Shown: in pieces, positions 13,728 through 42,942 of the stretch | Layout: each line of letters begins with the position of its first letter | Position numbering within the stretch: the first letter of the stretch is position 1 | NCBI RefSeq assembly: GCF_001625215.2 | Contig: NC_030389.2 | Span: forward strand, 37,499,454 to 37,563,453 | Direction: 5' to 3' | Source of the DNA: Daucus carota subsp. sativus | Taxonomy: Eukaryota; Streptophyta; Magnoliopsida; Apiales; Apiaceae | Length of the DNA: 64,000 nucleotides | Translations under genes and position numbers: made by a program | Notes under the pieces: model-generated | Told to the model about the DNA's origin: nothing | Databases searched by the model: none | Seen by the model: only the letters and a program-made list of their open reading frames with translations

Positions 13728-16700
13728 TTATTTGACTATGCTAGAAGGCTGTTTTATTATGTGAGCCCCGCACATATTCACTTCTATTTCTGCTTGAGGA
13801 AAAGAAATCATAATTTTGTCTCCGTTCTTGATTGAGATGTCCTCTGCCCTTATGCAATGTATACTTGATTGTACCTCATCCTTTATATCATAATTAAAAC
13901 CAATAGTAATCGGGGCAGCTATCGTATCCTCTGTTTTATTTGTGATAACAGCTTCAACTCTTGACCATCGGTCGGGGGAGCATTTATAAACGACCCATAA
14001 GGCGACACCCACAAAGTTATCTCCCAAGTTTGGGGGAACATGAAAAGATAGTGTGCACCCTTCCCTGTTTTTATAGTCGAACCACTCTGCAATTTCCCTG
14101 TTTTGTAGAGTAGCTCTAAATGCTTTGTTATACCCTCTTCCTAGCTGTAAGATAAAAAGAGAAATGGAGAGGGATTTAATATGTACAAAGAGTATTATTG
14201 GAAGAGAAAGACCACGAACGACAAACCTGAAGGTGATTCTCCTCTAAACTGACTTTTAAATTGCTGCCGTTGCGATAAACATCCAGTTGTTCTAAATCTC
14301 TCAACATTGACAGATCTGGAAATTCTTGTAGGCTTGTACAATCTTTAACTGTAAGGGATTCAAGATGAGGTGGAAGTTTGTGGAGAGATTGAAGGCTGCA
14401 GCATCTGGTGATGGACAATTTAAACAAGTGTTTGAGGTAGGACAATTCAGGTACTTGTTCTAGTGAAGCGTGGTTTTCTACCTGCAAGCTTCTTAAATTG
14501 AGTGGTAGTTCGGGAAAGGAGGAACCATGAGTTGTACTGTTAGTCAACTGAAGATATTTAAGGTTGAAAAGCTGAAAGAAACTAAAGGGTTTGGTTGGGG
14601 AGGGACTCCCGCACTCATCATAGAGTATTAAAAATGTCAGAGAAGTAACACTTACAATGATAGGCAACCAAACTCTTATATTACAACTCAGATGCAGGGT
14701 CTCCAACTTTATATCAGTTACGGCCTCGATCAACTCAATTTTTATTATGTCCTCACCAACAAGAAGTAAACTTCTAAGTGATTTAAGATTGCCGATGCTA
14801 TTTGGAACACATGAAAGCTTCTCGCATTTATTGAAATCCAACTCTTTTATCATAGGCAGTGATCCAATAGAATCCGGTAATTCTTCAATTGCTGAAGAAG
14901 ATGCATCTAGCCTTTCTAGACACTGCATCTTCCCCACCTGCTCAGGCAATCTCTTCAGCTCTGAACAGTATCTCAGATTCAGAGATCTCAATTTAAGCAG
15001 GTTTGAAAACGAGTCTGGCAGTTGTTCGATTCCACTTGCTTCTGCATCAAATGTCTCCAAGGCTTCCATGTTCCCAAATTGCTCAGGTAAGTTTCTAAGC
15101 TTCGTGCAGCAGCTCAAATCCAAATAAACTAACTTCTTCAAGTGAGCAATTGAATCTGGCAGTTGCTCAATTGCTGTAAAACTTACATCAAGCATCTTTA
15201 AGCATTTCAAATCACCCAACTGCTCCGGCAATAGTTTCAGATTGCTGCATTTCCTCATATTCAAACTGCTCAGAGTAGTCAATTGTGTGATGGGGTTGGG
15301 AAGTCGTTTTAGACTCACACAATCATTCAGATTCAAATGGGATAGAGCAGTCAAGCGTCCAATTGAGTGGGGCAATTCTTTCAAGTTTTTGCATCCTTTC
15401 AAATTCAAGTGACGCAAAGATGGCAACTGTACAGTCAATACACCCATAAATCAACTCATAATCAGAAAAAAAAGGCTAGTTTTTAAGCTTTTTCAGTTTG
15501 TATTGCACAGGAGTAGATGAGAAAGTTTTTACCAGCACTAGTAGCATTGAGGTTTAAATTAATATGTATTTATATATTTTTATTAATATTTATTTATTTG
15601 TTTATATAACATAATATTAATTTATTTTTTTATGTTACATGTAGTAATTTGTTATTATTTTCTTAATTTTTTGACTGTTGAGTTTTGACTCCCATTGTTA
15701 CTCTACACGATCACTTAATTTTTTTTATATATTATTACGTCTTGCGTTGTTGTTCATAAATTTATCTTTTATATCTCATTTAAATACCAAAGCGGTAATT
15801 TTTTTTTAATAACGTGATTAACTTAGTAAATATATAATAGTAAAGCAACAAATAATCATGCAAGGAATAAAATAATTAGCTAAATTCGAAAGGTAAAGAC
15901 TATTTTTAGAGAAAAGGGATTTAAAAAGGGTAATTAACAAATATTAAATAAATAGTGGCTTGGATTCTTAAATAGGAAATCTAGAGCCTATAATGATGAA
16001 AAGTATAGTTGGACCAAGTAGAGTCTAATTTCTTAAAAAGAAAGTATTAAGTTGATTTATTTCTGTTTAGAAGAATCCTTCTGTATTAGTGAGAAAGCAT
16101 AACTGTTACTGTATATCATATCAGAGACAACCAAACAAATTCACTCTCATATTTATCTTGATGTGACAATCTATGTGTTTGATTAAACTGTGGAATGTGA
16201 TTTCATTTGATATTTAGTTCTCATTTATAACTCCGACACTGAAGCTGCATATTATTTACAAAGATTTACTTTGAGATTGATACCTTACGACATTGCTTTG
16301 AGGAAAGAAATTATAAATTATGCTAAAGTTGACCAATGGTTTTGAAACACAGTTATTTTAATTAGATTTTGACACAACTCTATATTTGCTACATTGTATC
16401 ACAATCTCGTTGAGCCTTATTATATATAAAATTGATTCATTTGTGTTTACTCGAAATTGATAACAACTCATTAAAATATCTTTACCTGATAAATTGATTT
16501 ATTTCTCTGAAGAGCTTTTGTACTTTTGTGATAGTAACATATTGATTCCTTTTACTATAAACTTCAACTCACTTTACATTCTAAGATAGCCATGGTTCTT
16601 ATTCCATGTTTATACTTCTATTTTAATACTCGCTCACACTATTCGATTCGAGCGTCAAACTTTTTTATTCTTAAATGAATGGTGGCATTGCACATATGTA

Positions 16701-19700
16701 GGGAAGAGTACATAATTGTTCAAAAAGAGGATTTCTTGTACTGAAGGAAATTCCTGTGGACCGGTCAACATGAATAGTTTTTATTCATGAAAGAGAAGAG
16801 AATTATTTACTGTCTATGAAATGAGACAGTTTAAGAGTTGAAAGTAATAAGCTTATGCTAGCAAAAGAGTTGTAGGTGGTGCCTTTAGTGGTTGTGAGCA
16901 GACTGCGAGGGTGTCACATGAGAACAACATTCACAAAATGGTAGTGATCGAGTCATATAGTGATACCGCCAGGAAGATGGAAGACCATAAAATTCCTTAA
17001 TAATAACTTCTTGTTGAATGTTTCTAATTACAGCTCTTCTTTTGAATATGCTTTAATTGATATTCTGTCAAATTTATTCTGTGATATATACTGTGTTAAT
17101 TTCAAATGATCTAGTGGACTTATTGAGCATTCGATTGCTCATTCTTGTATCAATTTACATCTGTGAATACAGTAAAGAGTGAACATGACACGTATCTGAA
17201 AGACGATCCGAAGCGAGTGACAACAAGGGTAAAGAGAAGGCGTAATAAGAAGCTAAGATGAGGGTTAGTTGGAATGTTCCTGTGGTGTGTGTGAATCTTT
17301 GTAATATAAAATTATGAATTATATATTATAATAATAATATGTAAGTTAGATTTGTATGAGAAAATCAATCCCGGGGGCGACTGTTAATATGATAATACAA
17401 GTATGTCAGAGTTGGTGTGGTGGCATAGATCCACGGGATGTGGGTCTGACGCGTCACAATAATCTCTATTTTTTATAGTATGTATTAATAACATTTAGCT
17501 AAAGATTTTACAGTAATGAAGATGCTCGTGCTCCAAATGTAACTATTTACGATATTGTAACTTACTATCGTAATAAAATCCTAAGTGTTGGTGAAAAAGG
17601 GTTTTAAATTAAACTCTTTATAACTTTAAGCAAAACTTTTCGTTAAAATGGGGAAAGAGGATGGTAGCCATACTTGAAAATGATTTTGCTCTTTGAACCT
17701 TTTTGCTCTGTTAAGTATTTTGATTTATGGGCATTGTTACTGCCTCTATTTCTGATTTTTTACATAATTTTATGTGACTTTATTATCATGAATTTAAGAT
17801 GTACTTTTATTATCGGCGGAACATGTTTGACATAATTTCCAATCCATTTTCTTCATTTTATTTTCAATGCCATTTATGTTTTGATCTTTCTCTATAATTC
17901 ATATGATAAAATATTATATTAATTACAATTCCATTATTATTTAAGTGCATAAATAATAATTCTATCGAAATCACAAGTAGCTATTAACTATTATTATCCT
18001 CTATAACTCTAATAGCCTACTTGTTAACTATTACCATCCTATATAATAATAATAGCAATAGATACATTGTATAACTTATCTTTTTTTTTTATGACTAATG
18101 TTGTTGACTTGAATGAAGTCGGAAACACATTATAATCTACAAAATCGGCAAACAAGAGAATAAAAATGATCATCTAATTAGATTTTGGATAACTAACTCT
18201 TTGTTCATGCATAGCATATACTTCAGCAAACTTGATTTGTAACCAATCCGTGCATTCAAGTAGTATGGAATTTATAGAAATTGGAAAAACAAATTTGGAA
18301 CAATACTCCATCATGCTTCGTTTTGTGTTTCATAGGTCGGTTCAGATATTTACAGACTTAGCTCAATGTTAGGAAATTTGGATTATTCATTAGTATACTT
18401 TTTAAGTTTTCTACAAGTGATTAGCAGTGAACTATAATCTGATAAATTGTGATGCCGATTATCGTCCATGAAACGTAATGTATGACACGGTGTAGAACAT
18501 ACGTTGCTTGGTTAATTAATTTATTAAGTTAGTTGTTTTAGAGAATTTATCATATAAAAAAAATTTAACGTGCGAAGTACTGGCATATAAAGCTAGTATA
18601 TATAACACATGAGTGGGAGAGAGAAATAGTTAAGATATTTAATTTCATACCTTAGCAATCTTCCACAATGTTTCAAGTTTGCTAAATGGCATGTCCAAGA
18701 AAACAAGCTTTTGCATGTGAACACTATAAGGTAAATGCGTCCAAGAACAACCATGCCAACTTATGAACCTCAACTCATGAAATGAAGTTTTGAAATTTCC
18801 TTTGATATCATAGACATCAACTAATTTTAATAATCTCAGGTTTGGCAACCTTTCAAATAGCTCAGCATGGCAGTATTTGTTGATAGACATTGTACAATCT
18901 ACAAGGAGGGCTTCAATTTTATCCATGTCCTAAATGTTCAATTACATGCAGATAGTAGCAAAAGTGAGAAGTTGTACTCAGAATCACATTTTGCATAAGG
19001 TTAAAAACATATAAATTAAATATTAGTTAAGAGTAATTTTTCCGAATAGAAATTTAATAATTCAGTCAAATAATTATATTTTAAGAAAAAGCATGCATGT
19101 TATCTCATAGAGAAGAATAAGATATTTAGCATTTTGTTTACCTGATTTGGCAAAGCCTGTGATGCTTCTTCCAAGTACAAGTGCCGGCACTCCCCATGTT
19201 TGGATTCTTCGTGAATAATGTTCCTCCCCATATCTTGTATAAGATTATGCATTTGAAGCCTATTATCATAATCAATAATTAGTAGACATCTCTCAACTAG
19301 AACTGGTATCCCACACTCCGGAAAAAATTCACATGATCTGAATACATCATTAGCCTCATCTATCTTCTTTCCCAGGAAGAATAACACAATATCAAGGAAA
19401 ATAGTCTTTTGTGTGTCATCTTCTAACTCATCGTAACTCAGTTGAAGGATGCTTTGGATATTTTCCATTGGAATTTTTTGAACTTTTTTCAATTTAACTT
19501 TCCAGAATGACACATCTGTTCTACCGCACAAAGATGAACCCAACACCTTTAGAGCTAGTGGAAGGCCTCCCGCATAAGTAACAAAACTTTTAGACAGAGC
19601 TAAGTATTTTCCGGGAGGCTTTGATTGTTTAAAGGCATGATAGCTAAAGAGCTCTAGTGAATTGATTTTATTCAGATGCTTCACCCTATATGTATCTACT

Positions 19701-21075
19701 TTTGACATTGACATTTTTACTTTCAGTTGATTTGGGAGGTTTAGATCTCTTGACGTAATTATCATTCTGCCACCATCTGAAATCAGCTCGCAAATCCTTG
19801 CTAGCAAGTCTGAGTAGCTTGAATGGTCCATGTCTAAATCATCGAAAACAACGAGAGCTTTCTTATAACTAAGAATTTCTCCCAATTTTCTTAGTGCACT
19901 TTTAACATCTCGGACCTCAAAATCCTTGGCTCTGAGAAGCTCTTTCAAGAGTTTTTGAAGTAAAGAAAGTAGAGGACTAGCTCCTTGTGAATTCTGTTTT
20001 ATATTTTCCAAAAAACAACTCGCATCAAATTCGTGGGCGTACTTATTGTAGAAAGCCTTGGCTATCGTTGTTTTCCCAATTCCACCCATCCCACATATTC
20101 CAAGAGCGCGAACATCATTTGACTCCATGCTTAGTCGTTGATATATATCTTCGACAGCAGAATCTATCCCAAATAGACCTCTTTCAAGGTGTACGACCTT
20201 TGTCGATGCTTGTGACAATACATTGTCAACAATATTTTGGATTGTATCTGCTTCACTCCTGTTATTTTGAGTACAATATACACAGTTGTCATCCTTTGCT
20301 TATAATGTGTTGTGTCGCCAGTAATCATGTCATGTGTTTATAGAAAGTATACTGAACATTAACAGAAACACAGATGGTATAATTAGATAAAGAATTCATT
20401 GTAAAGGACTTACTTTTTTGCCTCTTCCAAATGGTATCCTGATAGAGCTGCGATTTCAGTAAGCGCAGACTTCCACTTGTCAATCTTATCAACAGAGTGA
20501 CGCTTCTTATGCTTCTTAAGAGCCACACCAAAACTCCCCGTGTGGCGTCGTAGATCTGATGGATTAACATAGTAAAACACCGGAATAACCTGATTCTTTG
20601 TTCTCTTGCAACTCAGGATCTGTACAAGCTCATCAAGGCACCACGACGAATCAGCATAGTTCTCTGAGATAACAACTACAAACATCTTAGAATTTCTGAT
20701 TGCTTGACGCAGTCCTGTTGAAATTTCTTCACCCTTTGGAAGTGCAGGATCGTCTCTGAAGGTAACAATTCCGGCCTGATCCAAAGCATGGTAAAGATGT
20801 GCACTGAACTTTGTGCGAGTGTCTTCTCCACGAAAACTCAAAAAGACATCCCATGGAGGGGATGAAGTGACAGCAGCTAATTGAGTAGTTGTAACTTCAT
20901 TCTTGTCTTCCACCACTGAGACTTGCTGGTGTGGCCGAGCAGAGGGCCCAAACATCACCCAAATAGCATAGAACAAGGCAAGTCCCAAAGCTACAAATAT
21001 AACCAAAGTCACAGGTGAGAGATCTGCGTATGCTGAGATTGATTCTTTCAAAGTTTCCCATAACACAAAAGCCAT
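13728..21075 (-). CDS. TIR-NBS-LRR immune receptor with N-terminal membrane anchor and C-JID domain
   Basis: Exons complement(20414..21075, 19142..20258, 18651..18929, 14227..15426, 13728..14144) give 1,224 residues, all in phase. Residues 1-70 form a leader with a transmembrane helix (about 20-41) that resembles the start of membrane steroid-binding proteins (MAFVLWETLKESISAYADLS). The TIR domain follows (75-215, VFLSFRGEDTRTKF) with its catalytic Glu at about 149 in SSWCLDEL. The NB-ARC has the P-loop GMGGIGKTT (277-285), kinase-2 LVVFDDLD, RNBS-B GGRMIITSRD and GLPLALKVLG. The MHD motif reads MHN (557-559). About 17 LRRs follow, then a post-LRR C-JID domain (EWFDYKNREGCTLSFHVPPN), which in known TNLs helps recognise effectors. 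TIR domains of this kind cleave NAD+ after oligomerisation. The protein looks intact, so a functional receptor is likely. Start ATG 21075 has context TCAATGG; upstream codons in the frame are not conserved-looking. Confidence 0.93.
15427..18650. other. Large intron 3 of the TNL gene
   Basis: This 3.2-kb intron has donor GTATGA next to 18651 and acceptor TGTACAG next to 15426. It is AT-rich and no coding frame was found in it. Around 17365-17460 a G-rich stretch followed by TGTTAATATG could be the edge of an old LTR, but no partner repeat was found. Confidence 0.7.
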
Positions 21076-35194: not shown

Positions 35195-38100
35195 ATGGGT
35201 CTCAGCAATGACCTGACAAAGAAAACTCCGATCTTTCATCTTCCAGTGTGGGCTTTAGTTGTGATTTTTGTGGTAGTTCCAGTGGTTCTTTTGGTGCTTC
35301 CGATGTGTATTTCAAGAAGGAGATCGAAGAAGGCTACTGAGAAGCTTCCGATTAGCCAGAACCAAATTGTGTCAAGTGAGTTCAAGGAGATCAGAATGGA
35401 TCAAAATTCAGCAAAGAATTTTGTTGCCTATGGTGGGGAGTTCTCCACCTCTGAGGATAAGTACAATGGCAAAGATTCGGATAAGCTGTTGGAGCATTTA
35501 AGAGATGATCAGATCAAGAATCCTAATATTAATAGCCGATCCGGATCTTTTAACAAGTTAGAGGATACAACATTTCAGAATGTTTCTTCCCCTCTTTCTG
35601 GACTGCCCGAGTTCTCACACCTTGGTTGGGGCCATTGGTTTACGCTAAGGGATCTGGAAGTCGCCACAAATCGGTTTTCAAAAGATAATGTTATTGGTGA
35701 AGGTGGATATGGTGTTGTTTATCAGGGTTATCTCCCAAATGGATCAATAATAGCTGTTAAAAAGATCTTCAACAACCTGTAAGTCAGTTAGGCTTCTTTC
35801 CAGTGACATGTGATTTATTCCTATAATTTTTGCTAGATTATATGTAACTCTAGCTGATGGTATGATATAAAATATGTCGTGCAGAGGACAAGCAGAGAAG
35901 GATTTCAAAATTGAAGTCGAGGCCATTGGCCATGTCCGGCATAAAAACCTAGTTAGACTTCTGGGATACTGCATTGAAGGGACCCAAAGGTACCACATTT
36001 ATGATCTGCTCTCGTCTCTCTAGGCATCTGTCAAAATCTAAAGAGTTTTAGCGTAGATGAAAAATATACTGACGAATGGATTATCATATTAAACGAAACA
36101 TGTGTAGAGAATTCTGAATGTCTAAGTTTAGGATTTTTTAATATTTTGACTGATTTCAAACAAAGCTTGCATCAAATTTGGAGGAGACGAATTCAATCAA
36201 AAAAACAGAGAATGTGGTCTTTTCTTTTTTGTACTTCATCAAGTCTACCCTACCGTTGCTCTTCATTTAGATAGGGATTTTAAGAAGTATTAACGGCTTG
36301 TCGACTTCTAATCTAATCCAGGATGTTGGTCTATGAGTATGTCAACAACGGCAATTTGGAACAGTGGCTTCATGGAGCTATGAGTCAACATGGATGCCTT
36401 ACTTGGGCGGCTCGAATGAAGGTTATACTAGGCACTGCAAAGGCGTAAGTCGATCTGTATATATCTTTATCATAGGTTCGATCTGTTGGGGGTAATTTTA
36501 TTAAACACACTCACCTCTTGCAGGCTTGCATACTTGCACGAGGCCATAGAACCGAAAGTGGTGCATCGAGACATTAAGTCAAGCAATATCCTATTAGATG
36601 ATGAATTCAATGCTAAGATTTCTGATTTTGGTCTGGCCAAGTTGTTAGGTGCTGGTGAAAGTCACATTACAACCAGAGTTATGGGTACTTTTGGGTAAGC
36701 ATATTCTCTGAAGCTGTCTTTGTACTCAATTGCACTTCTCAGTTTTCAACTTCTCATAAATGCTTCAATTCAGATATGTAGCACCAGAATATGCCAATAG
36801 CGGCCTTCTGAATGAGAAAAGCGATGTTTATAGTTTTGGGGTCGTGCTTTTGGAGGCAATTACGGGAAGAGATCCCGTGGATTATGGCCGTCCAGCAGAT
36901 GAGGTATCTACTATCTACACTTTGCAGCTCAATTTCTTTTAATGCCACCAATACGTTGTTATGATTCTTTGTTGAATTATAGAATGTAATCTTGTCGAAG
37001 AACACGGTGAATATACAAAGTATACTGGAATCTGGACTTTTAACACTTATCTGTTTGTTTCTTGATAACGCCAATCTCCGATCCCGGTCCTTCCTCCGCC
37101 GTGGATGACGGTTCTGCGGTGTAGCTGCTGGATGGGAGCCTACAAAACAACACCGGAGGGGGGTTTTGACCCCGCGGCGCCTCCGGCGTGAGGGTAAGCG
37201 TAGGTTTCGGAAGGATAAAGATTAGAGAAAGTGTTTTATCTATATGTGGTGGGTGAAGGTGTATGTGTGGTGGTTGCTGGTGGTTGGTGGCTGAGAGTGT
37301 TTGAATATATGCTGAGTGTAAGTGTGTGTAAAATGAGTGTAAAGAGAGAGTGAAGTTAACCCCCAGACTCTTGATCCTTGGTCCATTTATAGGCCAAGGA
37401 TTAGGGTTCGGGGGTGCGTACCTGGATCCTGGTCCTACACGTGTAGGGGTTTGATCTCCTACACGTGTCCAGGTGTCGGCGTATGAGTAGTATTTTGGAA
37501 TGTTCCCTGGCTTGTCTCTATCGCCAGTAGTTGACCGTTATGTTTGTCTTTATCGTGTCAGTCTGCGCCTCGTGCAGCAAGTGTCGGCTGGTACATATGC
37601 GCCCGGGCAAGTAGTAGGTTTTGCTGTATCCGGGTGAGGGATCTTGTCCGGGTTGTGTAACCTGACAAGACTAGGGGGCGTCCTGCGGTGTTGGCGGCTA
37701 CCCGGGGTGGAGGCTCCTCTAAAGGACCCGGGTGTTGCTTCTGAAGGGCCCGGGTGTTGCTTAACCGGGTTATACCCTATCATTTGCCCCCCACTCCCTT
37801 ATATAGATTTTCTATGTGAGGGAGTAGAGTGTAGTTTTTGTTTTTTGCTTCCCCGGCCGAGTGGATCCGAGTACTTGGTGGAAGTTCGTGATTGCCCTCT
37901 GCCCGGGTAGACCCGGGTAAGGTTTTGTGCTTTGCTCTGGATCCGGGTAGGAGTTGCAGCCAATTGTCTTTGCGTTGTTTGTCGAATGGACCCGGGTGAA
38001 ATAGACAGTGTCCGGGTTCGTAGGAGATGAATCGATGATTCTGCCGAGGGAATTCCGAGAGGTTTTTACTCACAGCTGTTTCTTTGTTTCGAAACTTGAA

Positions 38101-41100
38101 CGGGCGCGCCTTTTGAGGAAGTGTAATGATGAAACGGCTGTAATAACTGCCGTACGACCAATAGGGAGTGGCCACGTGGCCTAGTGATGTGGCTATAAGT
38201 ACAGCCCTCCCTTTCAGTTTCCATTTTTCACTTTTGCCTTTGTTTTCGAAATTGTCTTTTCGCCGGAGTTTTCTTCCAAAGTCGCTAGGTTTTCAAGTGC
38301 TCTTTGAGGATTCTTGCCGCCGTTGCTTGCGTGCTCCGTCTTTCTTTTCGGTCTTTTCTCCAGTAAGTTCCCCCTTCTTTCTTTCTTTGTATTTTCGTCT
38401 TTCCATGTATGAAGTCATTTGCATGAAGTTTATTTTTCCGAAATGCTTATTTTCGGTGGTTGTCACGCTCCGTATTCGTGTCTTTTCGCCGTCGTTCTTT
38501 GTTATGCGAAGCTTAGTTTCAGTTTTGTTTGCTTGTGTTTTGTGTTTTCGATTTTGGGGTGTGTTTGGGGCTTTGGGTTCCGTGGTGATTTCTGGGTTTT
38601 GATTAACGAAGAACACCAGTTATGTTCTTGAATGTATATGTGTGTATATGTGTATAGTTTAGAGGGTTTATGTTTTGATCTTGGATTGGATTTGAAAATG
38701 TGTTAGAAACTGTTTACGGCTCTTGGGCTTCTCAGGTTTTGAACTGAACCCGGGTAGGGTGTTTGTGCCCGGGTTGGGTAGCTTTAGGACACAGCCGTTT
38801 TAGGTGTTTGTAGGTTGTGTTCGTACTTTGCGAAGGGAAGGGTTTCCGACCCGGGTATATATGTTAGGTCCGGGTAGGGCTTTTGGGCGTTTTGTCTTGT
38901 CCTTGGGAAAACTTTTTGTGAAAACTTTTTGTGCTGTAGTATGTACATAGGATCCGGGTATCTTTTTAGTATACCATACTCTTCTCCCACGTAAATTTGA
39001 AGAAAGAGAGGGCCCGGGTAGGCTTTGCAGGATATGGTGTATGTGTCTTAATGGTGAGCCCGGGTAGATGTGCTGGTATTCTTGTAGCTTCCCGACTTGT
39101 GAGGATTTTCACGTCGCTGTAGCATATATTGGACCCGGTCGCGTTTTTAATATATAGCCCCGGGTCGGTTTGTAAGATGTTTGTAGTGTAAGATGGACCC
39201 GGGTAGATCTTTTAGCTCATGGCGTGCTTGTTTTTTGTTTTCTCTTTGGTATGTTCTTCACATAGAATTAGGATGGGATCCGGACCTAAATAAAACTTGT
39301 CACAATGTGTGAATTCTAAAAACTGACCCGGATTGCTTCTCTGTTTAGGTCCATGGTCCGGATCCCTAGGCGGCAAAGACGAGAAATTGTTGCGTATTCT
39401 GCTGTACCCGGGGAGTTTTCCAGTGACATAGAGTGTGACGAAGTCCATACTCTTGCTCACCGTGCTCAGGTGAAGATGGCTGAAAGAGAAGTTTCTTCTT
39501 CCGGGGTGGTGTCCGCGTTTCAGAAGGTTACCAAGACGATTGGAAGGCAGGTAATCATGTCCCCAGAAGGCGTCTGGTGTGACTCGAAGTCGTATTTTAT
39601 TACCAAGGCCCCCCTTGTCGAGGAGAAGGGTTTTTATACGAATATGGCCGGGTTCTATAGGCGTAAGCATCCTGACGGCCCCTTAGCTCCCTATAACAAG
39701 GAGGAGTTCGATGAGAGGTTTCGCGAATTTCCTGGGATCCGGGCTCCGTTCCCGGTGAGGAGCCATATTAAAGAGATGTCTCCGGATATGGCTGACCGGA
39801 TGATTCGGGCAGCTTTTCAACTTCCCCCTGAGATCGAGTGGAGGTGGCCCGAGCCTGGGGAGAAAATATATCATCGACCCGCAGACGGTTTTGTCCCGGT
39901 ATGGATGGAACATCTTCGGTCCGGGTGGAACCCCCGGTGGACGATCAACCGTCCACCCCACATATAGCTTCACACATTGTGACAAGTTTTATTTAGGTCC
40001 GGATCCCATCCTAATTCTATGTGAAGAACATACCAAAGAGAAAACAAAAAACAAGCACGCCATGAGCTAAAAGATCTACCCGGGTCCATCTTACACTACA
40101 AACATCTTACAAACCGACCCGGGGCTATATATTAAAAACGCGACCGGGTCCAATATATGCTACAGCGACGTGAAAATCCTCACAAGTCGGGAAGCTACAA
40201 GAATACCAGCACATCTACCCGGGCTCACCATTAAGACACATACACCATATCCTGCAAAGCCTACCCGGGCCCTCTCTTTCTTCAAATTTACGTGGGAGAA
40301 GAGTATGGTATACTAAAAAGATACCCGGTTCCTATGTACATACTACAGCACAAAAAGTTTTCACAAAAAGTTTTCCCAAGGACAAGACAAAACGCCCAAA
40401 AGCCCTACCCGGACCTAACATATATACCCGGGTCGGAAACCCTTCCCTTCGCAAAGTACGAACACAACCTACAAACACCTAAAACGGCTGTGTCCTAAAG
40501 CTACCCAACCTGGGCACAAACACCCTACCCGGGTTCAGTTCAAAACCTGAGAAGCCCAAGAGCCGTAAACAGTTTCTAACACATTTTCAAATCCAATCCA
40601 AGATCAAAACATAAACCCTCTAAACTATACACATATACACACATATACATTCAAGAACATAACTGGTGTTCTTCGTTAATCAAAACCCAGAAATCACCAC
40701 GGAACCCAAAGCCCCAAACACACCCCAAAATCGAAAACACAAAACACAAGCAAACAAAACTGAAACTAAGCTTCGCATAACAAAGAATGACGGCGAAAAG
40801 ACACGAATACGGAGCGTGACAACCACCGAAAATAAGCATTTCGGAAAAATAAACTTCATGCAAATGACTTCATACATGGAAAGACGAAAATACAAAGAAA
40901 GAAAGAGAGGGCCCGGGTAGGCTTTGCAGGATATGGTGTATGTGTCTTAATGGAGAGCCCGGGTAGATGTGTTGGTATTCTTGTAGCTTCCCGACTTGTG
41001 AGGATTTTCACGTCGCTGTAGCATATATTGGACCCGGTCGGTTTGTAAGATGGACCCGGGTAGATCTTTTAGCTCATGGCGTGCTTGTTTTTTGTTTTCT

Positions 41101-42942
41101 CTTTGGTATGTTCTTCACATAGAATTAGGATGGGATCCGGACCTAAATAAAACTTGTCACAATGTGTGAATTCTAAAAACTGACCCGGATTGCTTCTCTG
41201 TTTAGGTCCATGGTCCGGATCCCTAGGCGGCCTTGGCCTATAAATGGACCAAGGATCAAGAGTCTGGGGGTTAACTTCACTCTCTCTTTACACTCATTTT
41301 ACACACACTTACACTCAGCATATATTCAAACACTCTCAGCCACCAACCACCAGCAACCACCACACATACACCTTCACCCACCACATATAGATAACACACT
41401 TTCTCTAATCTTTATCCTTCCGAAACCTACGCTTACCCTCACGCCGGAGGCGCCGCGGGGTCAAAACCCCCCTCCGGTGTTGTTTTGTAGGCTCCCATCC
41501 AGCAACTACACCGCAGAACCGTCATCCAACTTACTGGAGAAAAGACCGAAAAGAAAGACGGAGCACGCAAGCAACGGCGGCAAGAATCCTCAAAGAGCAC
41601 TTGAAAACCTAGCGACTTTGGAAGAAAACTCCGGCGAAAAGACAATTTCGAAACTTGAACGGGCGCGCCTTTTGAGGAAGTGTAATGATGAAACGGCTGT
41701 AATAACTGCCGTACGACCAATAGGGAGTGGCCACGTGGCCTAGTGCTGTGGCTATAAGTACAGCCCTCCCTTTCAGGTTCCACCCGGTTAAGCAACACCC
41801 GGGCCCTTCAGAAGCAACACCCGGGTCCTTTAGAGGAGCCTCCACCCCGGGTAGCCGCCAACACCGCAGGACGCCCCCTAGTCTTGTCAGGTTACACAAC
41901 CCGGACAAGATCCCTCACCCGGATACAGCAAAACCTACTACTTGCCCGGGCGCATATGTACCAGCCGACACTTGCTGCACGAGGCGCAGACTGACACGAT
42001 AAAGACAAACATAACGGTCAACTACTGGCGATAGAGACAAGCCAGGGAACATTCCAAAATACTACTCATACGCCGACACCTGGACACGTGTAGGGGATCA
42101 AACCCCTACACGTGTAGGACCAGGATCCAGGTACGCACCCCCGAACCCTAATCCTTGGCCTATAAATGGACCAAGGATCAAGAGTCTGGGGGTTAACTTC
42201 ACTCTCTCTTTACACTCATTTTACACACACTTACACTCAGCATATATTCAAACACTCTCAGCCACCAACCACCAGCAACCACCACACATACACCTTCACC
42301 CACCACATATAGATAACACACTTTCTCTAATCTTTATCCTTCCGAAACCTACGCTTACCCTCACGCCGGAGGCGCCGCGGGGTCAAAACCCCCCTCCGGT
42401 GTTGTTTTGTAGGCTCCCATCCAGCAGCTACACCGCAGAACCGTCATCCACGGCGGAGGAAGGACCGGGATCGGAGATTGGCGTTATCATTTCTTGAACT
42501 ATTAAAATCCATGATGCATGCAGGTAAATATGGTGGATTGGCTTAAACTGATGGTTGGGAGCAAGCGGTCAGAAGAAGTGATCGACCCGTCTCTGGAGCC
42601 CAAGCCATCTAGAACTGCTCTTAAACGAGCACTGTTGACTGCATTGAGGTGTGTTGATCCAGATTCCCAGAAAAGACTCACAATGAGTGAAGTTGTCCGG
42701 ATGCTGGAATCAGAGGACTACCCTTTGTCGCGGGAGGTATGCTTATAGCTTCTTGAACCAACACTGCACAATGTTATTGATTATGTACATTTCAATAACA
42801 TGACATTCACGAGAAGGATAGCTGAAACTATAACGAATCACATTCTTTGCATATTCAGGGTCGAAGACGTCAGAGAAATCAAGGCGGAGCCACGGAAGCA
42901 GAGTCTGCAGGGAGCAAGGTCACTGAGATACATAAATTATAA
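35195..42942 (+). CDS. Membrane receptor-like kinase, RLCK-V type (At5g18500/At2g42960-like)
   Basis: Exons 35195..35778, 35885..35989, 36322..36444, 36524..36694, 36774..36903, 42524..42736 and 42859..42942 give 469 residues in phase. Only about 15 residues precede a transmembrane helix ([19 protein letters not shown]), then a basic stop-transfer (SRRRSKK), a Ser/Asn-rich juxtamembrane stretch and a Ser/Thr kinase domain. It keeps the glycine loop [11 protein letters not shown], the lysine in [23 protein letters not shown] and GTFGYVAPEY, so it should be active. Without an ectodomain it cannot bind a ligand itself and probably acts in a larger receptor complex. The C-terminal tail is basic then acidic ([16 protein letters not shown]). 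Intron 5 (36904..42523) has grown to 5.6 kb by a 5.4-kb LTR-derived insertion; both splice sites are intact and the exons on either side match family order, so splicing may be preserved. Confidence 0.93.
37063..37782 (-). repeat. Left LTR-like arm, minus orientation
   Basis: Read on the minus strand, this 720-bp arm runs TGATAGGGTATAACCCGG to GGCGTTATCA, the TG...CA form of an LTR. It contains a TATA-like CCTATAAATGG about 300 bases before its end. Immediately before it on the minus strand (37783..37805) is a purine-rich tract, GGGAGTGGGGGGCAAA, matching a polypurine tract. This arm therefore looks like a 3' LTR of an element running leftward. Confidence 0.75.
38377..40905. repeat. Internal hairpin: 937-bp inverted arms around the ORF
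   Basis: Segments 38377..39313 and 39969..40905 are inverted copies of equal length, separated by a 655-base loop that holds the element's ORF. A further direct copy of part of the left arm follows at about 40905..41232. On transcription the two arms would fold into a long double-stranded stem. Confidence 0.8.
39353..39967 (+). other. Element-borne ORF with similarity to 'gypsy-type transposase' (PF04195-like) proteins
   Basis: This 204-codon frame starts [20 protein letters not shown] and includes [20 protein letters not shown] and [18 protein letters not shown], the flavour of the plant 'putative gypsy type transposon' domain. It runs opposite to the left LTR-like arm. Antisense accessory ORFs next to the 3' LTR are known in the Tat lineage (Ogre/Retand/RIRE2), so this may be such an ORF carried by a fossil or non-autonomous element. 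A TATA-like GGCTATAAGTAC at about 38190 could be its own promoter. The family call is by eye and uncertain. Confidence 0.5.
41782..42489 (+). repeat. Right LTR-like arm, plus orientation (inverted copy of the left arm)
   Basis: This 708-bp arm is the reverse complement of 37063..37775 with very few differences seen. Its TATA-like box is at about 42160. A second partial copy of the final part of the same arm lies upstream at about 41230..41528. Confidence 0.8.

Follow-up and report, generated by a model that had tools for sequence, protein, structure and literature searches.

A TNL receptor clade of Daucus carota with an N-terminal leader homologous to membrane steroid-binding proteins, a probable captured signal anchor

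The window, a stretch of 64,000 nucleotides of the Daucus carota subsp. sativus genome (C9:37499454-37563453), contains on its minus strand a predicted gene in which TIR, NB-ARC and LRR domains are combined, indicating a putative TNL receptor. Exon 1 (21075-20414) begins with an ATG at 21075-21073 and its translation reads MAFVLWETLKESISAYADLS PVTLVIFVALGLALFYAIWV MFGPSARPHQQVSVVEDKNEVTTTQLAAVTSSPP WDVFLSF..., with leader, linker and TIR domain in a single exon. The TIR part (20414..20853), identified by Pfam, contains the motif SSWCLDEL and is bounded by the splice donor AAAAAA/GTAAGT; a Glu of this motif region is presumably the catalytic residue. Exon 2 (19142..20258) encodes the NB-ARC domain and winged helix, with the P-loop GMGGIGKT and with MHN replacing MHD, and exon 3 (18651..18929) encodes the start of the LRR region according to Pfam. 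Exons 1, 2 and 3 are joined in frame at GT/AG sites. A further LRR exon (14227..15432, both ends approximate) was placed by its open frame and Pfam LRR matches, and a C-terminal exon (13728..14144, start approximate) is C-JID-like, its Pfam match (E 1.6e-4) scoring 22.4 bits, below the cut-off of 24.1. The protein of the predicted splice model matched the Pfam families TIR (1.3e-46), NB-ARC (4.6e-27) and LRR_14 (3e-38) and also WHD_ROQ1, the Roq1-type winged helix; the motif GLPLAL is present as well. MHN was found where MHD is usual in 5/8 copies of the gene (window, L002, L004, L005, L007), and the other three were not matched by the pattern used. The search of the window against Rfam gave nothing at the gathering threshold. 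Elsewhere in the window, positions 37063-42489 hold nested near-perfect inverted repeats plus direct copies, with 708-nt arms at 37063-37770 and 41782-42489 and 943-nt arms at 38371-39313 and 39969-40911; this region resembles a nested or fold-back mobile element.

The leader comprises codons 1-46 of exon 1 (20938..21075) and was delimited by alignment to an MSBP gene and by genome searches in both directions. Codons 1-20 (21016..21075) form a pre-transmembrane segment, defined by identity to that gene, shuffles and a structure model, and codons 21-43 (20947..21015) a transmembrane segment, defined by the hydropathy maximum and the model. Met41 (20953..20955), seen in the translation and in the leader comparison as the second in-frame ATG, lies close to where the hydrophobic stretch ends, and the linker occupies codons 47-74 (20854..20937). 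The earlier note had described one transmembrane helix and a TIR domain that follows after about 30 residues in the same exon. Both points agree with our results: there is a single hydrophobic stretch, whose best 19 residues are 24-42 (mean Kyte-Doolittle hydropathy 2.63), and the linker has about 32 residues because the TIR domain begins at residue 75 of the protein (Pfam). A single-sequence AlphaFold model predicted helices at residues 2-15 and 21-42 with block pLDDT of 74-87 (74-75 in residues 1-20, 86-87 in residues 21-40). Only these leader helices were moderately confident, the model being poor elsewhere, TIR included (mean pLDDT 52.3; residues 44-78 under 50). A single hydrophobic helix is thereby predicted N-terminal of the TIR domain, the arrangement of a signal-anchored TNL. 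The charge difference across the helix was small and variable, and topology by charge was not clear-cut. The leader had no Pfam match and no significant match in the PDB, where the best E was 1.3 and the four matches at E≤10 included no TNL.

The leader (73-aa query) was searched against the genome of 441,086,747 bases in 11 contigs. Scoring of 28 candidates gave 27 matches at E≤10. Of these, 24 lay on C9 and one on C4; the other two lay in membrane steroid-binding protein (MSBP) genes, MSBP_C3 (C3:6638709, 54%, E 6.8e-11) and MSBP_C6 (C6:37194877, 52%, E 4.5e-10). In both MSBP genes exon 1 runs into GEITEEEL-type MAPR sequence and the second exon reads MFYGPGGPYALFAGKDASRALA. The spliced MSBP_C3 protein contains a Cyt-b5 domain (Pfam, E 3.2e-12) and matches three MAPR-type structures, including PGRMC1. 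The reverse search with this protein (217 aa) returned 28 matches at E≤10, of which nine were MSBP/MAPR-type places. The other 19 were leaders, 18 of them on C9 and the last on C4, and were matched solely inside MSBP_C3 residues 1-73 (best E 5.3e-10). No gene kind other than these leaders and MSBP/MAPR genes was found in this genome in either direction at E≤10. On C9 the MSBP_C3 query matched leaders alone and no MAPR domain, and the window protein had no Cyt-b5 match in Pfam at E≤0.1.

The earlier note had likened the leader to the opening of MSBPs, and this likeness is borne out by the genome's own genes. The window leader and MSBP_C3 are identical at 27/46 positions over residues 1-46 with no gap, and at 14/20 of the first, non-hydrophobic residues. 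In shuffles that kept composition and layout, 0/20,000 reached the whole-leader score against MSBP_C3. The DNA sequences are 71.3% identical over 143 bp without gap (pairwise E 4.7e-16), from ATG-4 to about codon 46. The leader was present in 3/3 MSBPs read (the third is C6:33570170), and a profile-profile comparison of nine TNL leaders with the three MSBP exon-1 sequences, the kind of search that the note had proposed as a test, gave a probability of 98.9 and E 1.5e-17. Judged by sequence, the N-terminal leader of the window TNL is homologous to that of MSBP/MAPR proteins. A captured MSBP promoter or 5′ UTR was also considered; in the 1.5 kb upstream in the window, nothing past ATG-4 matched with E below 0.2. 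This result says nothing on the breakpoint because non-coding sequence at a pS of 0.59, the value for leader and MSBP_C3, would have faded.

The copies on C9 and C4 were surveyed, covering all matches except the two weakest, 35996 and 36890 (E 0.49). Nine leader-TIR exons were intact, that is, uninterrupted from the first Met into the TIR domain: the window copy and those at C9:37263, 37169, 37244, 37286, 35465, 37191, 37209 and 37223 (kb). A tenth, 35883, is intact and diverged and was matched twice with equal scores. Damaged leaders have a stop (37308) or a frameshift (37200, 35469, 35863, 35452); 34814 has no start, and 35902 has a decayed TIR. In C9:35469, 35863 and 35452 (L020, L021, L023) the pre-helix segment was lost by frame damage and the helix was kept, preceded by a possible new Met. 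Among the eight copies whose NB-ARC exon fell within the DNA examined, it lies in one long frame in five (window, 37169, 37244, 37191, 37209) and is apparently interrupted in the other three (37263, 37286, 35465). Two loci, C9:35952664 and C4:44258386, have a leader and no TIR in the flanking DNA examined. They were considered as split-gene intermediates and look like truncated relics: within about 1.5 kb on each side, nothing besides the leader matched TIR, NB-ARC or MSBP with E under 1.7, and a further 2.5 kb downstream of C9:35952664 gave none at E≤0.01. The C4 locus shows that a fragment of the leader is also present on a second contig of chromosome size. Between about 35.45 and 36.90 Mb of C9, matches recur with equal scores at spacings of 893,818 and 923,423 bp, which would reflect a large duplication or an assembly duplication inside the TNL cluster and are double-counted in the raw match lists.

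A tree built from the DNA of 13 TNL leaders and three MSBPs separated the leaders from the MSBPs by a branch with 100/100 support. Of its inner branches only 2/13 had good support, and the bootstrap had not converged. The tree excluded the damaged copies 37200, 34814, 35902, 35469, 35863 and 35452, the duplicate second copies and both weak matches. The TIR tree had 18 rows, and a branch with 99/99 support set apart the 13 rows from C9. The nearest other row was the leaderless C3:1623452 (86/83), and three TNLs with a different leader lay outside. With C6:33570170 as the assumed outgroup, the TNL leaders, MSBP_C3 and MSBP_C6 formed a single unresolved fork. This fork, together with the finding that each of the three MSBPs read has the leader, points to MSBP as the donor, the root being assumed. 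Both trees are consistent with one capture followed by expansion.

Five TNLs outside C9 were read upstream of the TIR domain, the four best-scoring TIR matches and the lower-scoring C6:4507284, which was chosen as its match reached upstream. Three had a second, unrelated transmembrane leader (MDISKEVVFIWALPVL... / MDISKEVVFIWALPVLTVLVILAIIILIVSVKKHC), at C3 526-658 kb, C2:22987239 and C4:25965928 (L091, L093, L094), and two had no leader. The earlier note held that TNLs mostly begin at the TIR domain itself, which has to be qualified for this genome, where 3/5 of those read have the different leader and 2/5 none. The note had not recorded that the MSBP-type leader belongs to the C9 clade and that near relatives have a second, unrelated anchor. 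Used as a query, one leader of the second type found eight places at E≤0.077, all adjoining TIR matches, and nothing else in the genome, no non-TNL, below E 2.1.

Between the window leader and MSBP_C3, pS was 0.59 and pN 0.20, and between MSBP_C3 and MSBP_C6 the values were 0.51 and 0.06. The capture would thus be roughly as old as the MSBP duplication. The leader protein has changed less than the silent sites (p 5.6e-5, Fisher test on rounded counts), which partly reflects history on the MSBP side. Among the nine intact leaders, dN/dS was 0.82 overall, 0.63 before the helix and 1.25 within it, from pairs that are not independent, and it was 0.69 for the first 88 TIR codons of the same copies. 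When 35883 was added, the values were 0.94 for the leader and 0.48 for the TIR codons. Selection within the C9 clade therefore appears weak. All 18 TNL leaders tested, broken ones included (37200 left out), retain 19 residues in a row whose mean hydropathy is at least 1.73. Compared with a neutral simulation, the window copy (P 0.00) and 35883 (P 0.04) were more hydrophobic than expected, and the other 8/10 copies were inside the neutral range (P 0.10-0.54). The kept hydropathy is little evidence of function, because it is also found in broken copies and is within the neutral range in most others. When neutral evolution was simulated with MSBP_C3 as the start and 41 changes, the observed identity was reached in 91/5,000 runs and a stop was gained in 69% of runs. 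These sequence comparisons make constraint since the capture likely, and do not show it strongly within the clade.

We favor, with a probability of about 0.8, a single capture of an MSBP leader in the stem of the TNL clade, followed by expansion on C9, with the leader working as a signal anchor that is not cleaved. In this reading ~46 codons, perhaps as many as ~60, from the start of an MSBP (MAPR) gene related to MSBP_C3/C6 by type would have been fused in frame ahead of a TIR exon, and the fused gene would then have multiplied on contig C9. Translated from its first ATG, the leader would form a short helix and one transmembrane helix with the N-terminus in the lumen. With the N-out topology that is predicted for MSBPs, the TIR-NB-LRR part would face the cytosol at the ER or at a membrane downstream of the ER. 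Effectors and TNL partners are found at the cytosolic face. Although receptors of this class are normally soluble, those of C9 are probably membrane-tethered, and the anchored receptor would signal in the usual TNL manner with a NAD-consuming TIR, to a presumed benefit for resistance. The available text of PMC9478949 gives MSBPs as predicted N-out proteins with a cytosolic C-terminal domain; MSBP1 is tabulated at the cell membrane in that of PMC5712850, and the MSBP location differs between these papers as far as their available text goes. That difference weighs against the favored reading, as do the weak selection among the intact leaders, the hydropathy kept in broken copies, the apparent interruption of the NB-ARC exon in 3/8 copies, the small charge difference across the helix and the 91/5,000 neutral runs that attained the observed identity.

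Capture from an MSBP had been offered in the earlier note together with convergence as the other option. Any N-terminal anchor of similar hydrophobic layout might resemble MSBP, since transmembrane segments share composition, and the second leader type is indeed hydrophobic; it is nevertheless unrelated in sequence. That leader is more hydrophobic than the window leader (3.22 vs 2.63), and since its search listed nothing outside the TNLs below E 2.1, matches of this kind did not arise from hydrophobicity alone. Moreover, when residues 2-20 and 21-43 were shuffled apart, 0/200,000 shuffles reached the score in either part, and as the first 20, non-hydrophobic residues match alone, the similarity is not one of transmembrane composition. 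A transmembrane likeness would not give the gapless DNA match, the pre-helix identity or the profile match either, and these, with the two-way genome searches, leave convergence very improbable and support the capture. A different question is whether a leader that was truly captured is mostly unused, with starts downstream or at Met41 yielding a soluble receptor, or both forms. Met41 is found in 17/18 of the TNL leaders compared, some of them broken copies; relic 35952 has Leu at this position, as do both close MSBPs. A start at Met41 could give a soluble form. The first ATG in the window has T at -3, the MSBP_C3-like context ATCAATGGC is found in 7/9 intact copies, and the dN/dS among close paralogues exceeds 1 within the helix. 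On the other hand, the nine intact leaders retain the first ATG and the frame, and the leader is conserved at the protein level against MSBP. We regard a largely unused leader as unlikely.

The leader might also act as bait, either as an integrated MSBP decoy or by keeping the receptor beside MSBP partners to sense effectors, a reading that is compatible with the anchor capture favored above and does not exclude it. MSBPs belong to the host, and scaffold roles are reported for them (MSBP1/2 for P450s, MSBP1 with BAK1, in the text available to us); NLRs with integrated host domains are known. Against this, the anchor alone was captured and no MAPR domain, since leader matches stop at residue 73 or earlier, and the unrelated anchor of related TNLs suggests that tethering and not MSBP identity matters; this reading is less likely still than an unused leader. 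It is a speculative extension of the anchor capture, and a doubtful one, that the anchor is an exchangeable module of a TNL superclade, that Met41 yields tethered and soluble forms, and that the TIR domain sits beside MSBP-scaffolded P450/BAK1 complexes and monitors them.

The flax TNLs L6 and M likewise have a hydrophobic N-terminal signal anchor that is not cleaved by signal peptidase (review, PMC3801107). In the available text of that paper, these anchors send the receptors to the Golgi or tonoplast, an anchor swap is a location swap, L6 at the tonoplast is still functional and deletion of the anchor destabilizes L6. The window TIR matched flax rust resistance chains in the PDB (7vu8, E 3.4e-37; 3ozi (L6tr), E 2.3e-36). 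As far as that description goes, no donor gene is named for the flax anchors, whereas on C9 the donor family can be named and the anchor is characteristic of a whole clade. With plant MSBP/MAPR proteins the window protein has the first ~46 residues in common, that is, the pre-helix segment and one transmembrane helix, and it differs in having TIR-NB-LRR and no Cyt-b5/MAPR domain that could be found. The window TIR match in 7crb, which we take to be Arabidopsis RPP1, starts at residue 82, indicating a long N-terminal extension there; the window leader had no significant match to it or to any other TNL in the PDB. Cucurbita NLRs are reported to have a cytochrome b5-like domain or TM signatures (PMC8463517, in its available text), which by this description is a domain, in contrast to the anchor alone in the C9 TNLs. 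For celery, 116 TNLs and no integrated domains are reported in the available text of PMC12148408; a domain scan of this kind would not see an anchor. Signal-anchored TNLs and MSBP are already known. In the open-access literature searched, no NLR was found described with an anchor derived from MSBP, and a TNL anchor with a traceable donor gene was not found described.

It is still debated where TNLs must sit to work. The occurrence of an unrelated anchor in related TNLs suggests that tethering may matter more than the identity of the anchor, and an MSBP anchor in one clade, with another anchor or none in its relatives, makes the part of membrane tethering in TIR signaling testable. Since the leader gave no Pfam match, relocation of NLRs by this means would be missed by integrated-domain scans, and the capture of an anchor may be a route by which the location of NLRs evolves.
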